The position numbers and the translations under genes are program-made. A stretch of DNA of 64,000 bases from contig CANJBQ010000012.1 of the NCBI GenBank assembly GCA_947472645.1, forward strand, positions 1 through 64,000, written 5' to 3'. Positions 47,726 to 60,067 of this stretch are shown here, one piece after another. The notes beneath the pieces were generated by a model. It did not search any database. It had not been told where the DNA came from and saw only the letters and a program-made list of their open reading frames with translations. Numbering within the stretch: the first letter of the stretch is position 1; each line of letters starts with the position of its first letter. This DNA comes from Burkholderiaceae bacterium. GTDB taxonomy: Bacteria; Pseudomonadota; Gammaproteobacteria; Burkholderiales; Burkholderiaceae.

Positions 47726-47753
47726 TTGCGCTTAGCGAATAACTGTATATAAT
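47726..47753 (+). promoter_or_regulatory. lexA: Predicted lexA promoter
   Basis: TTGCGC at 47726-47731 and TATAAT at 47748-47753 are separated by 16 bp, 32 bp before the lexA ATG. The -10 element lies inside the LexA box, as expected for autorepression. Confidence 0.65.
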
Positions 47754-47758
47754 AACAG
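47743..47758 (+). promoter_or_regulatory. LexA box in the lexA promoter
   Basis: CTGTATATAATAACAG is an exact CTGT-N8-ACAG SOS operator overlapping the -10 hexamer. It shows that LexA in this organism uses the enterobacterial-type motif, which supports the other boxes called in this window. Confidence 0.9.
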
Positions 47759-47785: not shown

Positions 47786-48463
47786 ATGATGAATCAGCCC
47801 TTACCGAAGTTAACCGCTCGTCAAGAAGAAATTTTGCAACTTGTTCATGACTCTATTTCCGAAAATGGGGCTCCTCCCACACGTTCAGAAATTGCTCAAA
47901 AACTGGGCTTTGCATCCGCAAATGCCGCTGAAGAACATCTTAAAGCCTTAGCTAAAAAAGGCTATCTAGAACTTAGTCCAGGGACATCTCGCGGCATACG
48001 CATTCGGGAATCGATTCGCCAAACTGCAAAGCAGTTAAGCCTTCCATCCCAAATGCTTGCGCAGCTTACACTCCCCTTAATTGGACGCGTCGCTGCCGGG
48101 GCGCCAATCATGGCTATCGAACATGTGGAGCAACAAATTCCCGTGGATCCGAATTTATTTAAAAATGGCGCTGACTATCTGCTGAAAGTAAAAGGCCTTA
48201 GCATGCGAGATGCTGGGATACTTGATGGAGACTATCTCGCTGTGAAAAAATCTTCCGAGGCTCACAATGGGGATATTGTAGTTGCCAGAATTGACGATGA
48301 AGTTACTGTAAAAAGATGGATGAAAGTGAAAACTAGCTCAGGAATCCAAATCCAACTCATCGCTGAAAATCCAGACTTTGAACCAATTATTATTAATGAT
48401 GATCATCTAGACTTTGCCATTGAAGGACTCGCGGTTGGCCTGATTCGACCTAACGGACTGTAA
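47786..48463 (+). CDS. lexA: SOS response repressor LexA
   Basis: Transcriptional repressor and self-cleaving S24 peptidase, 225 residues. The N-terminal winged helix has [29 protein letters not shown] and [16 protein letters not shown]. The cleavage site is Ala104-Gly105 ([10 protein letters not shown]); the Ser-Lys dyad is Ser139 (GLSMRDAGI) and Lys176 (VTVKRWMK), the same 37-residue spacing as in E. coli. The linker is somewhat longer than in E. coli LexA (202 residues). It controls itself and, by sequence, the small gene at 58441-58551. Confidence 0.97.
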
Positions 48464-56950: not shown

Positions 56951-57109
56951 ATGAAAAAACCGATTGTTAAAAACCCTGTAGCAAAAAATCTAGCGAAACT
57001 AAACAAGAAAGCTGGAGCTCATGGCAAAACAGAAAAGGCACAACGTCGTGGCGCTTCAGTAGCGCTTCAGAATAAGCTGATAGATGAGTTATCTAACAAG
57101 AAAAAATAA
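56951..57109 (+). CDS. Small basic hypothetical protein, 52 residues
   Basis: Frame ATG 56951 to TAA 57107-57109, encoding 52 residues starting MKKPIVKNPVAKNLAKLNKK and ending in a lysine-rich tail. It has about 14 Lys/Arg and few acidic residues, so it may bind nucleic acid or ribosomes. The ribosome binding site is weak. It lies between divergent and convergent neighbours and fills an otherwise empty 240-bp interval. I do not recognise a family with certainty; similar short KNPVAK-type proteins are seen in Burkholderiales by memory only. Confidence 0.65.
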   Translation: MKKPIVKNPVAKNLAKLNKKAGAHGKTEKAQRRGASVALQNKLIDELSNKKK

Positions 57110-57111
57110 AT

Positions 57112-57657
57112 CTAAAAAGAAGATCCTGGTTGATTAAGAAACTCCAACTCCTCTAGTGTTGAAGTTCTACCTAAAATGGCATTACGATGCGGATATCGAT
57201 TAAATCGATTAATTACCTCAGAATGCCTAGCGAGTGAACGAGCATATGAGTCCAACCCAACAGATTGAAAGTAAGGCTGGGCAAATTGATGAATAACCTT
57301 TGACTCACTATGCATCATCGGCATATATAAAAATCCCTTTTCATCTGGCATCAGCCCCGTATTTTTACCTTGGAAAATAGCGTCTTGCGTGAGAACAAGC
57401 GCCATCGGATCGCTAGCAAAAGATGATGGAAGATGCCGATACATATTGCGTGAAAACTGATCCAAAACAATAATTTCCGCTAAGCGGCCTAAAGGGTTTT
57501 CACGCCAATCAAACAACTCGCCCTGATATGCCTGAGTATGAGTATTTTGAAAACGTTGCAAAATCATCTGATCAAAAGCATCTGATTTTTCCCACCACTG
57601 TTTTGGTGAAATCTCAACGAACCAAAATCGTAGAATATCTTCAAAGTGAATTTTCAT
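57112..57657 (-). CDS. DUF924 family protein
   Basis: Protein of 181 residues with the DUF924 pattern: ILRFWFVEISPKQWWEKSDAFD near the N-terminus (as FWFVE and WWEKSDAFD), EIIVLDQFSRNMYRH, and HRNAILGRTSTLEELEFL at the C-terminus. The family is a TPR-like helical fold of unknown function. Convergent with the 52-residue gene, leaving 2 bp. Confidence 0.88.
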   Translation of the reverse strand: MKIHFEDILRFWFVEISPKQWWEKSDAFDQMILQRFQNTHTQAYQGELFDWRENPLGRLAEIIVLDQFSRNMYRHLPSSFASDPMALVLTQDAIFQGKNTGLMPDEKGFLYMPMMHSESKVIHQFAQPYFQSVGLDSYARSLARHSEVINRFNRYPHRNAILGRTSTLEELEFLNQPGSSF

Positions 57658-57771
57658 ACTGGGTTACTACCTAAATGATGATTAAACAGATTCTTTTTTC
57701 GAGGGATAAAACAGCTCTAATAGAAAACATTCAGTATAGAATATGATTATCGTCAACACAAAGGTTATCCT

Positions 57772-58251
57772 ATGTCAGATCATCACACCCCTACCGATTG
57801 GAAACATGATGGTGTGAGGGTCGTTCCCGGTAATCAGCTTGACACTAACACCCCACAAACGCCCGGCATGAATCGTGCTGCCGCAATCAACTTTGCACGT
57901 GTTGGGGCACAAAAATTGTGGGCAGGTACAGTAACGATTCACGCTAATGCGAAAACTGGCGCTCATCACCACGGAGCTTTAGAAAGTGTTATTTATGTCA
58001 TCAAAGGTAAAGCCAGAATGCGCTGGGGTGATCATCTAGAATTTACTGCTGAAGCTGGTCCGGGTGACTTTATTTATGTGCCACCCTATGTTCCCCATCA
58101 AGAAATCAATGCAAGCCCTGATGAAGCGCTAGAGTGTGTTTTAGTGCGCAGTGACAACGAAGCAATCGTCATGAATTTAGATATTGAGCCCATTGAACAT
58201 CCTGAAAATGTCTTCTGGATAGACCCAATCCACAAGGATCCAAAAATGTAA
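57772..58251 (+). CDS. Cupin domain protein
   Basis: Single-domain cupin of 159 residues. The metal-binding motifs are GAHHHGALESVIYVIKG (two His and a Glu) and YVPPYVPHQEIN (third His). It may be a small dioxygenase, isomerase or sensor. It stands alone with a 114-bp upstream gap and tRNA-His downstream on the other strand. Confidence 0.85.
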   Translation: MSDHHTPTDWKHDGVRVVPGNQLDTNTPQTPGMNRAAAINFARVGAQKLWAGTVTIHANAKTGAHHHGALESVIYVIKGKARMRWGDHLEFTAEAGPGDFIYVPPYVPHQEINASPDEALECVLVRSDNEAIVMNLDIEPIEHPENVFWIDPIHKDPKM

Positions 58252-58309
58252 TTGAAGGAAGTTTGAGTTGCCGTTTCAGCAACTTATATAGCCTTTAAAG
58301 CAACAATTT

Positions 58310-58386
58310 TGGGGTGGCTGATGGGGCTCGAACCCACGACAACAGGAATCACAATCCTGGACTCTACCGACTGAGCTACAGCCACC
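58310..58386 (-). tRNA. tRNA-His (anticodon GTG), CCA encoded
   Basis: The minus strand folds as a standard tRNA: 5' GGTGGCTGTAGCTCAG, anticodon arm CAGGA-TTGTGAT-TCCTG with anticodon GTG, T arm with GGTTCGAGCC. The extra 5' G (position -1) opposite C73, the identity feature of tRNA-His, is encoded, and the 3' CCA is genomic (58312-58310). Confidence 0.97.
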
Positions 58387-58401
58387 GTAGAAAAGACTAC
58401 T

Positions 58402-58429
58402 ATTCTACATCAAGATAGCTGTTTTCAAC
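58402..58429 (-). promoter_or_regulatory. Possible tRNA-His promoter
   Basis: On the minus strand GTTGAA (58429-58424) and TAGAAT (58407-58402) are 16 bp apart, placing a start about 8-10 bp before the tRNA 5' end. It lies between the tRNA and the small SOS gene, so the two can be transcribed separately. Confidence 0.45.
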
Positions 58430-58440
58430 AATGGCGGCGA

Positions 58441-58551
58441 TTAAAAACTCGTGTCTTTACAAACCCATTCTTTTTGATGAAACTCACCAAGGCTCTCATC
58501 AAAAATCAACCAAACTAAAAATGATTTCAAACCAAATGTCATCGTCTTCAT
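58441..58551 (-). CDS. SOS-regulated small protein, 36 residues, unknown family
   Basis: Frame ATG 58551 to TAA 58443-58441, encoding 36 residues. The first half is MKTMTFGLKSFLVWLIF, mildly basic then hydrophobic, and the second half, from DESLGEFHQKEW, is polar with a single Cys near the end. A GAGGAG ribosome binding site (58564-58559) lies 7 nt before the ATG, an ideal spacing. A strong sigma70-like promoter with LexA boxes lies upstream. The hydrophobic stretch of about 10 residues is short for a membrane span. A TisB-like membrane peptide, a SulA-like division inhibitor or a leader peptide are all conceivable; I do not recognise homologues. Confidence 0.7.
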   Translation of the reverse strand: MKTMTFGLKSFLVWLIFDESLGEFHQKEWVCKDTSF

Positions 58552-58580
58552 GCTGTATCTCCTCGAACTATTGAGATACC

Positions 58581-58609
58581 AATATACTGTATATTTATAC
58601 AGTATTCAA
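58581..58609 (-). promoter_or_regulatory. Sigma70 promoter of the small SOS gene
   Basis: On the minus strand TTGAAT (58609-58604) and TATATT (58586-58581) have exactly 17 bp between them. The start site would be near 58573, giving a leader of about 22 nt that contains the GAGGAG site. The LexA box occupies the spacer and touches both hexamers. Confidence 0.75.
58585..58604. promoter_or_regulatory. LexA box 1 of the small SOS gene
   Basis: TACTGTATATTTATACAGTA is a CTGT-N8-ACAG operator with both TA flanks, one base from the E. coli consensus TACTGTATATATATACAGTA. It lies between the -35 and -10 hexamers, the classic position for full repression. Confidence 0.92.
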
Positions 58610-58637
58610 GTAATTTATAACAGTACTGTTGTTTTTT

Positions 58638-58657
58638 TACTGTTTATATCCACAGTA
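58638..58657. promoter_or_regulatory. LexA box 2, upstream
   Basis: TACTGTTTATATCCACAGTA also fits CTGT-N8-ACAG with TA flanks. It is 53 bp from box 1, about five helical turns. It overlaps nothing but the region just before the end of the acyltransferase gene (stop at 58659). A 12-bp palindrome AACAGTACTGTT (58619-58630) lies between the boxes. Confidence 0.85.
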
Positions 58658-58658
58658 T

Positions 58659-59285
58659 TCAATATACACCCTTTTTCTGCTTCGAAGGGCTCCAAAACTC
58701 AATAGGGGCCATGTTTTGTGGCAAACGCCCCACAGTTCCTTGATAAGCTTGGCGAATTATCCCTAAATCAATTTCCTCATCACCCGTCATATAGGCAAAT
58801 TCGGTGACTCCAATTTGTTTTTTACCGTAATCAATACATGCAAAACCCACCGGATATCCGGTCATTAAGGTTAATCGATAAAAACCGCTTCTCCAACCTG
58901 GTGTTTTTTTTCGAGTCCCTTCAGGGGTAATGACTAACCAAAATTGATTCGCATACCGCATCTCATTAGCCAATTCAGATACATAACCCTGCGGACTATT
59001 CCGGATTACAGGTCGGCCACCAACATATTTGAGCCACCATCCTACGATAGGAATCCTAAATAAACTATCTTTCGCCAAATAATAGACAGGTAACTGTATC
59101 GCCCATTTAGCTAATATCCCCAACAAAAAATCGACATTAGACGTGTGGGGATAAACAATCAGAATGCCGTGCGTCCCAGGTAAGCCCTCAAACTTGACCT
59201 TCCAACCCCATATCCTCAGGATCAAATGGCTGAGTTTTCCACGGGGGAATTGAAGCCAATTTTCTTTATCAATGATTTTTGTCAT
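58659..59285 (-). CDS. PlsC-like glycerophospholipid acyltransferase
   Basis: Acyltransferase of 208 residues. The catalytic HX4D motif is in YPHTSNVDFLLG, and the substrate motif is ITPEGTRKKTPGWRSGFY. The family includes 1-acyl-sn-glycerol-3-phosphate acyltransferases, but this short subgroup is often of uncertain substrate. It follows the DUF2244 gene by 8 bp. Downstream lies the LexA-controlled small gene. Confidence 0.88.
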   Translation of the reverse strand: MTKIIDKENWLQFPRGKLSHLILRIWGWKVKFEGLPGTHGILIVYPHTSNVDFLLGILAKWAIQLPVYYLAKDSLFRIPIVGWWLKYVGGRPVIRNSPQGYVSELANEMRYANQFWLVITPEGTRKKTPGWRSGFYRLTLMTGYPVGFACIDYGKKQIGVTEFAYMTGDEEIDLGIIRQAYQGTVGRLPQNMAPIEFWSPSKQKKGVY

Positions 59286-59293
59286 TTATTGGA

Positions 59294-59755
59294 TTATGTA
59301 CTCAGACGCAAATATCGTTGAAGCTCTCGTAAAAAATCCTCCCTTAAAGAGGCGTGTAAAAATTTTCCAATTTCAATCGTTTTACCTTGATAACCAATTC
59401 GAATCATTTTTTTATCCGTTAACATATGACTCAATTGGACCCAGGAAGAGTTAAAAACCATCAATCGGTTTTTGCCAGCCTCCGAAATTTCGATTTCTAA
59501 TTGCCCCTTTTTTAGGGTAATGACCTCAAAGTCAGTCGCATGGCGAGCATACAACAACAAAGCAAATGCCAAAACAACCAATTCAAGAAACGTAAATGGT
59601 AAAACGATCCAAATACCCTGAATCAGAAAAAAACCAGCAACTAATAGTGAGAAAGTGGCTTGTGCGATATAGAATAAAAGAACTTGTCGGGGTGTAAAAG
59701 AACAGTTTTTTTTGAAAATCCATTGATGGAGGGGCACAACAAGATGGTTACTCAT
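59294..59755 (-). CDS. DUF2244 family membrane protein
   Basis: Protein of 153 residues with a hydrophobic hairpin of two membrane segments (about 28-50 and 52-70) followed by a cytoplasmic beta-rich part (FEVITLKKGQLEIEI). This is the DUF2244 layout, found near cytochrome oxidase genes in many proteobacteria, but no cox gene is here. Its start overlaps the start of the divergent lipoprotein gene by 12 bp. Confidence 0.85.
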   Translation of the reverse strand: MSNHLVVPLHQWIFKKNCSFTPRQVLLFYIAQATFSLLVAGFFLIQGIWIVLPFTFLELVVLAFALLLYARHATDFEVITLKKGQLEIEISEAGKNRLMVFNSSWVQLSHMLTDKKMIRIGYQGKTIEIGKFLHASLREDFLRELQRYLRLST

Positions 59756-60067
59756 TATTTATCTCATTATCTAAAATCCAGTTCTATGGTTATTGTGACA
59801 TTATTTTTAATAGGCTGTGATCGGAACGACTACGTAACATGGAAATGCTCTTCTGCAGATCCTCAGGAAAAAGCATTTAGCTTCATTCTGGAAGGCTCTA
59901 AAATGACTCTGGTAGGAACGCCCTATTCTTTTTGTGGTAGTTATGGGGCAAACAGTTTTTTTGATACCCCTTGCCCACCTACCCCCACAGATGCGCATAT
60001 TATGTTTCATCAAAAATCTGGTGCATTGTTTATTAATAGCAAACCTTATAGGTGTAAATCCCTTTAA
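59744..60067 (+). CDS. Small lipoprotein of unknown function
   Basis: Protein of about 107 residues. The start at ATG 59744 is preferred because GGAGGGG precedes it; the signal sequence (SSSMVIVTLFLIGC) ends in lipobox LIGC at Cys25. The mature part has five more Cys (WKCSS, SFCGSY, TPCPPT, YRCKS), which may form disulfides. No family recognised. It is followed 3 bp later by the CoA-binding protein gene. Confidence 0.7.
   Translation: MVTHYLSHYLKSSSMVIVTLFLIGCDRNDYVTWKCSSADPQEKAFSFILEGSKMTLVGTPYSFCGSYGANSFFDTPCPPTPTDAHIMFHQKSGALFINSKPYRCKSL

Follow-up and report, generated by a model that had tools for sequence, protein, structure and literature searches.

The peptide gene and its relatives

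The window (the whole stretch of DNA that was analysed, 64,000 nucleotides from a member of the Burkholderiaceae) carries on its minus strand a small gene for which an earlier note had described a 36-codon frame, a GAGGAG sequence, a TTGAAT-17-TATATT promoter and two CTGT-N8-ACAG boxes 53 bp apart, together with the same motif at lexA. All of these are present, the box at lexA lying at 47743-47758. The features of the locus, and those of lexA, are:

58441..58551, minus strand: micropeptide ORF (group A), MKTMTFGLKSFLVWLIFDESLGEFHQKEWVCKDTSF, 36 codons, ATG to TAA
58559..58564, minus strand: GAGGAG ribosome-binding site, 7 nt before the peptide ATG
58581..58609, minus strand: sigma-70-like promoter TTGAAT-17-TATATT, from a promoter scan
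58587..58602, no strand assigned: LexA box 1, CTGTATATTTATACAG, CTGT-N8-ACAG, filling the promoter spacer
58640..58655, no strand assigned: LexA box 2, CTGTTTATATCCACAG, CTGT-N8-ACAG, 53 bp upstream of box 1
58310..58385, minus strand: tRNA-His (gtg), next gene downstream of the ORF, on the same strand
58659..59285, minus strand: acyltransferase-like gene (by sequence reading), upstream of the ORF; the group A neighbour of the peptide
47743..47758, no strand assigned: LexA box of lexA, CTGT-N8-ACAG
47786..48463, plus strand: lexA (NCBIfam TIGR00498, E 3.8e-69, over the cut-off)

Since 58250-58720 holds two promoter-like sites against a mean of 1.4 in shuffled sequence, the promoter match alone is weak evidence. 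Of the 14 group A loci (the window's kind, defined below), 12 have TTGA at the -35 position, and a purine-rich stretch stands at the place of the ribosome-binding site in all 28 group A and B loci. No promoter-like site was found on the plus strand of 58250-58720, and a sequence scan found no terminator-like site between the ORF and tRNA-His. An Rfam scan of 57000-60000 matched tRNA as its sole family; kinds of RNA foreign to the scan would escape it. Comparison of neighbourhoods showed that tRNA-His is not a conserved neighbour of the peptide family. The peptide gene lies ~8-15 kb from lexA in four group A genomes (G000, G146, G183, and G196).

Relatives of the peptide in the genus were first obtained by a single-sequence search. 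A profile rebuilt on 19 rows (E 0.02) placed them in 49 of 186 genus genomes, the window genome counted; an earlier profile had given 51/186 at E 0.05, and the figure of 49 is used here. Among 249 genomes of the family, seven matched, all from the same genus (1 of 25 genera), and no relative was found in the other genera sampled. At the level of the order (399 genomes), the only convincing match was in the window genome (G000), and the remaining 12 matches (E 0.016-0.049) extended over 10-20 residues, eight of them inside frames of more than 100 codons. Loci L008-L015 and L017 were set aside as chance matches, and a truncated second copy in G003 (L016), G197, G021, and the second matches of G082 and G091 were dropped before counting.

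The frame itself is conserved, not the boxes alone, and the claim that it encodes a protein was borne out by purifying selection: pN was lower than pS in 169 of 169 pairs of peptide genes, with pooled pN/pS values over five length classes of 0.29, 0.25, 0.17, 0.10, and 0.09 (group A, 0.25-0.29). This sample consisted of 41 distinct sequences of the 49, the omitted ones being four group C sequences of other length or start, three of group D, and one duplicate. Members of the family are 31-40 residues long and have the core FxExxGE[WF]xxxEW[VI]C. In 19 aligned members M1, F17, E19, E28, W29, and C31 are invariant and W14, G22, and E23 nearly so; the best-conserved half of the peptide is therefore the polar, Trp-rich, C-terminal tail and not the hydrophobic half. 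Judged by its sequence, the frame at 58441-58551 (minus strand) is a real, selected, lineage-restricted protein gene. That it is a chance frame next to a regulatory element or an RNA, as its shortness might suggest, is scarcely credible in view of its occurrence in 49 genomes, the conservation of its start and ribosome-binding site, and pN below pS in all pairs compared, and on this last ground we rejected both a chance frame and a regulatory RNA alone.

The 49 genomes were sorted by peptide sequence into group A (n = 14; peptides of 35-36 residues, the window's kind), group B (n = 14; 40 residues), group C (n = 18; 31-34 residues), and the divergent group D (n = 3; 37 residues). With neighbouring genes named by sequence reading, the group A peptide lies beside an acyltransferase-like gene, that of group B mostly near SUI1-like and 2-hydroxyacid dehydrogenase-like genes, and that of group C, at most loci, after a YqiA-like gene or beside a molybdopterin-oxidoreductase-like gene and before an HNH gene. 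Since the neighbourhoods of A, B, and C differ, the peptide appears to be a stand-alone gene, and we rejected for the same reason a leader peptide for tRNA-His or another downstream gene. The peptide is dispensable, since 137 of 186 genus genomes are without a match although 164 have lexA.

Cargo of a prophage or plasmid was likewise rejected, since searches of plasmids with a group B peptide and of phages with the window peptide gave matches only at E ~4-5. One degenerate pattern that covers GEWxRKEWVC forms, and not the window peptide's kind, had no match in viral contigs. Five members of the family were scanned: Pfam gave no family, NCBIfam a single weak match (E 0.092, far short of the cut-off), and PHROGs likewise a single weak match (E 0.071), its function unknown. 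Among the papers listed, titles and the opening of abstracts yielded nothing on the peptide, either for SOS/LexA, WYL regulators, damage, inhibitors, small proteins, and umuD in Polynucleobacter or for SOS small membrane proteins and betaproteobacterial SOS division inhibitors. Two LexA-linked hypothetical genes, hypA and hypB, were described in a 2012 comparison of the SOS response among betaproteobacteria that carry several chromosomes (PMC3323433).

LexA boxes at the peptide and elsewhere

The CTGT-N8-ACAG motif occurs three times in the window against 0.55 expected, a count reached by 3 of 100 shuffles. Over the whole window genome the loose motif is not enriched (12 sites versus 22 for the reversed control). 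Since the window count is only moderately rare and the genome-wide pattern not enriched, the real evidence for the LexA boxes is comparative. Nine of the 12 sites were inspected: five precede SOS genes (lexA, recA, umuD, and two at the peptide) and four precede genes with no evident tie to SOS.

The 18-mer of the inner box, ACTGTATATNTATACAGT, was found at 58 distinct sites, spread over 44 of the 186 genus genomes; its reversed control was found at none. With genes identified by reading N-termini, 30 of these places lie before umuD, 21 at the peptide, three before a Y-family polymerase, three before other genes, and one at a contig edge in a group B neighbourhood. Family models were applied to two of these kinds of gene: the window genome's umuD, which stands behind a close but not identical form of the 18-mer, passes its cut-off, and one Y-family polymerase behind the 18-mer matches DNA polymerase IV models below their cut-offs. 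In one genome the 18-mer stands before a gene that reads as DNA methyltransferase-like (L139, G135:C2:430529).

A perfect CTGT-N8-ACAG box was found within 200 bp upstream of the peptide in 14/14 group A and 14/14 group B loci, and in 0/18 of group C and 0/3 of group D. Its position relative to the peptide start differs between the first two groups. In group A the box fills the promoter spacer and ends 33-39 bp before the ATG (35 bp at the window gene), and 13 of the 14 loci carry another box further upstream, at either 51-53 bp (six loci) or 62-63 bp (seven loci); these spacings correspond to about five or six helical turns, several of the loci being close relatives. Group B has a single box, 41-79 bp before the ATG.

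Degenerate boxes in groups C and D were considered and rejected: with a matrix derived from 41 boxes of groups A and B, the best scores there were -4.1 or lower versus 26.6-32.8 in A and B, and the best of them (L039) was reached by 13 of 200 shuffles. A switch of LexA motif in group C was also rejected, since CTGT-N8-ACAG was still seen at lexA or umuD in 11 genomes of the 18 in that group. Control of the peptide by LexA, as had been claimed for the window's promoter, is therefore well supported at the sequence level in groups A and B, with a box in 28/28 loci. The broader description of the gene as SOS-inducible holds for these two groups in so far as they have LexA boxes, and is not true of the whole family, since the 18 group C genomes are without a box at the peptide and have a different, WYL-linked palindrome instead. 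The gene, its conservation, its LexA boxes, and the set of SOS genes that share them can be read directly from the DNA compared here.

Two side observations concern the boxes. In 7 of 14 lexA promoters inspected (L078, L080, L081, L084, L087, L088, and L091), CTGT-N8-CCAG stands in place of CTGT-N8-ACAG, which suggests weaker LexA autoregulation in those genomes. In G044 (L118, ~1500-1560), an exact LexA 18-mer is followed by a ribosome-binding site and ATG-AAT-TAA, ~45 bp from a palindrome of the WYL type; this stretch briefly resembles the start of a group C gene and is perhaps a decayed copy of the peptide gene.

A palindrome and a WYL-domain regulator in group C

Upstream of the peptide, GCTCA-N5-TGAGC was found in 18/18 group C loci and in 0/31 other loci; the three group D members have neither this palindrome nor a LexA box. 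A hexamer of the form xAxxxT (CATACT, CACAAT, CAAACT, or AATACT) follows the palindrome by 11 bp in all 17 distinct group C promoters. The same palindrome precedes the gene of a WYL-domain regulator at 25 of the 30 best loci of that gene. At offset 11, xAxxxT was present in 17/24 distinct WYL promoters and in 25/28 further sites, the latter chosen for a plausible start behind them and hence no random sample; overall it was present in 59 of 69 sites, versus at most 14 of 69 at any other offset from 3 to 27. Since the palindrome recurs with different upstream genes and at a fixed 11 bp from a -10-like hexamer, its reading as a terminator of the upstream gene is disfavoured. GCTCA-N5-TGAGC is, as far as sequence can tell, the likely operator of the WYL regulator.

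The regulator has Pfam WYL and WCX domains. Its nearest solved chains are PafBC (3.4e-19), PafC (1.4e-11), and WYL-domain proteins (1.6e-8 to 7.1e-8), including structure 8tp8, which we take to be DriD. Both DriD and PafBC are sensors of DNA damage. At E 1e-40 its gene was found in 70 of 186 genus genomes, and no match was found in the window genome. By group, the gene is present in 17/18 of C (G193 by a partial match; not found in G082, which is 80% complete), 6/28 of A and B, and 1/3 of D; the comparison of C with A and B gave a Fisher p of 1.7e-6, with kinship ignored and a group C sequence as the query. The peptide has the WYL gene as its immediate downstream neighbour, in convergent orientation, in two genomes of group C (G156 and G057). 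There a palindrome stands before the WYL start as well, ~50 bp from it in G057 and, unlike the usual spacing, ~13 bp from it in G156. A preprint describes a comparable promoter layout for the WYL activator DriD (PMC12340889): a palindrome takes the position of the -35 and keeps a set distance from a poor -10. The DriD consensus given there is ATACGAC-N7-GTCGTAT; GCTCA-N5-TGAGC is unlike it.

Beyond the peptide, the palindrome was seen in the -35 place with a -10 11 bp on, sometimes on both sides, at L171, L172, L174, L181, L183-L212, and L213-L224. The genes behind it include the WYL gene, small secreted proteins rich in Asn, Ser, and Pro, small membrane peptides, and others, and in the genomes inspected they cluster in islands around the WYL gene. 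In 18 genomes with the WYL gene and without the peptide, 4-15 palindromes each were counted versus 0-4 for the reversed control. Taken together, the sites look like a genus-wide regulon of the WYL regulator. The eight group C genomes searched showed weak enrichment (4-9 versus 0-4 for the reversed control, with one genome at 4 versus 4), and several copies lie inside coding frames (L167-L170, L225-L230), in group C genomes and elsewhere; both points speak against a broad regulon within group C.

Peptides of 33-47 residues with one hydrophobic stretch (MEFINNFNGLTLLMLVGLSYLS-like) lie behind the same palindrome at L215 (~13987), L216 (~14711), and L218 (~516), in genomes without the peptide family studied here; they are possible functional stand-ins for the micropeptide. 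A separate stretch resembling TTGAT-N4-ATCA, seen by eye between the peptide and a divergent molybdopterin-oxidoreductase-like gene at L064, L065, L066, L070, and L071, lies upstream of those peptide ATGs and is presumably of the FNR type.

To place the groups, a tree of LexA proteins was built from 55 rows (7/14 of A, 12/14 of B, 11/18 of C, 3/3 of D, and 22 peptide-less genomes), without an outgroup and drawn with a midpoint root. Group A formed one clade (100/98) and group B another (99/95), and the C rows fell into three pieces within a third clade (97/93), shared with D and sampled peptide-less genomes; a single origin of group C would be compatible with the supported branches. The separation of A and B from the clade containing C would fit LexA control as the older state, provided that the midpoint root is correct. 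We consider it possible, and put it forward tentatively, that within one genus the same damage-response micropeptide passed from LexA to a WYL activator resembling DriD and PafBC, or in the opposite direction. Such a hand-over would comprise a promoter gated by a repressor in two clades, one of activator type in part of a third clade, and, in two genomes, a convergent two-gene unit of the peptide and the WYL gene.

Possible function of the peptide

In E. coli and other bacteria, small SOS-induced proteins of several kinds are available for comparison. SidA of Caulobacter, an SOS-induced division inhibitor unrelated to SulA, has 29 residues and acts on FtsW (PMC4211646). SidA lies in the inner membrane, and inhibitors of its type bind FtsW/FtsN and block constriction. 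The peptide resembles SidA in size, in predicted LexA control, in having a hydrophobic segment, and in the lack of SulA; like SidA it is tiny, stand-alone, and, at the level of its promoter sequence, SOS-controlled. We set the peptide beside SidA by size, control, and hydrophobicity and not by sequence, and the two differ in that the peptide's LexA motif is of the beta/gamma type and in that a membrane span appears not to be general in its family. Indeed, the best 19-residue hydropathy in 15 representatives was 1.59-1.85 in B (three), 0.81-1.53 in A (five), -0.05 to 0.71 in C (six), and 0.46 in D (one). Only group B reaches transmembrane-like values, with a hydrophobic run of 19-20 residues that is shorter in A and C, and since the usual threshold is reached there alone, a SidA-like membrane span is apparently not a trait of the family.

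The same paper indicates that in Caulobacter control of division inhibitors by LexA and by a WYL protein both occur, in two proteins, SidA and DidA, the latter under DriD (PMC4211646). DidA is SOS-independent and stands under a WYL-domain activator; the group C peptide is similar in that its promoter has, where a -35 would be, a palindrome that keeps a constant distance from the -10 and also occurs at the gene of a WYL regulator. The difference is that here one peptide family stands behind either LexA boxes or the WYL-linked palindrome, whereas SidA and DidA are two proteins.

SulA is also SOS-induced and offers a parallel in the possible role in division, but the peptide has no Pfam match. 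The SulA model (PF03846) found 0 of 186 genus genomes over its curated cut-off and two below it (E ~9e-4), which agrees with the earlier note's statement that no SulA-like gene lies next to lexA. The division checkpoint that it proposed would be a plausible role. YneA of Bacillus and SosA of Staphylococcus are single-span membrane proteins. They are SOS-induced division inhibitors outside E. coli; they belong to Gram-positive bacteria and are likened to the peptide by description, not by sequence.

The explanation that we favour, with reserve, is that the peptide may well be a damage-induced micropeptide that works like Caulobacter SidA by arresting division or another membrane-linked process. 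LexA bound on the promoter spacer and at a second site about five helical turns upstream would keep the gene off, and upon DNA damage RecA-stimulated cleavage of LexA would release the peptide together with lexA, recA, and umuD. The peptide would act alone, as a single-gene effector. Through its short hydrophobic N-terminal segment it would dock either at the membrane itself or at a hydrophobic site on a membrane protein, a mode preferred over a pore since hydropathy in the transmembrane range is found in group B only. The conserved FxExxGE[WF]xxxEWVC tail would bind one partner, which most likely belongs to the machinery of division or of the cell envelope, and division would be held back during DNA repair, as with SidA. 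We infer LexA binding and induction, docking to the membrane or a partner, and division arrest from several features: the conserved codons and core, a LexA box in 28/28 A and B loci, the spacing of paired boxes close to whole helical turns in group A, the stand-alone gene, the absence of SulA over its cut-off, the precedent of SidA, and an 18-mer found elsewhere mainly before umuD and Y-family polymerase genes. Against this explanation stand the absence of a LexA box in group C, membrane-range hydropathy that is limited to B, the dispensability of the peptide, and the lack of genome-wide enrichment of the loose box motif.

The main rival is a direct modulator of the SOS or translesion machinery, a partner of RecA, LexA, or UmuD whose aromatic, acidic tail binds and tunes the response. 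DinI and DdrR are modulators of that kind. The peptide does have LexA boxes like those of umuD and recA, and its tail is more conserved than its hydrophobic part. However, in the 11 group C genomes (of 18) examined on this point, lexA or umuD retains a LexA box while the peptide has none, so that in these genomes it need not be made with the SOS proteins, and a hydrophobic N-terminus would be unexpected in such a partner; we regard this role as unlikely. We are similarly doubtful of a more general stress peptide (for envelope, phage, or competitor stress), whose control fell to LexA in certain lineages and to a WYL regulator in others and for which DNA damage would be just one trigger. The WYL-linked palindrome in group C favours it, as does the grouping of WYL sites, in the genomes inspected, into islands that also hold small secreted proteins and small membrane proteins, an arrangement that phage or competitor stress would fit too; WYL regulators are linked to phage-defence islands as well (PMC9122601). 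At the window gene, however, LexA boxes are the only operators seen.

Least probable of the three is a membrane-depolarising toxin that drives dormancy after damage, of the kind of TisB or DinQ, the SOS-induced membrane peptides of E. coli. Small size, LexA control, a hydrophobic N-terminus, and the run of 19-20 residues in group B would suit it, but the run is shorter in A and C, the conserved part is the polar, Trp-rich tail, and neither the plus strand of 58250-58720 (no promoter-like site) nor the Rfam scan of 57000-60000 (tRNA only) gave a sign of an antisense RNA. TisB has a long regulatory leader, and with 33-39 bp from the last box to the ATG in group A there is no room for one. The likeness to TisB that had been suggested for the window's peptide is thus not sustained beyond size and LexA control: transmembrane-like hydropathy occurs in B only, and the conserved half is the C-terminal one.

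To our knowledge, what stops division after DNA damage in the lack of SulA is an open question for many groups, betaproteobacteria among them. For a response of this kind, the micropeptide is a concrete candidate for a small effector, with its invariant residues named, and it indicates that SOS genes can be as short as 31-40 codons and still have boxes of the same quality as those of umuD. One small effector has apparently moved between LexA and WYL control within one genus, where SOS-dependent and SOS-independent checkpoints could therefore be compared. If the hand-over is true, selection would keep the effector rather than the regulator, and an SOS-independent damage checkpoint would exist outside Caulobacter.
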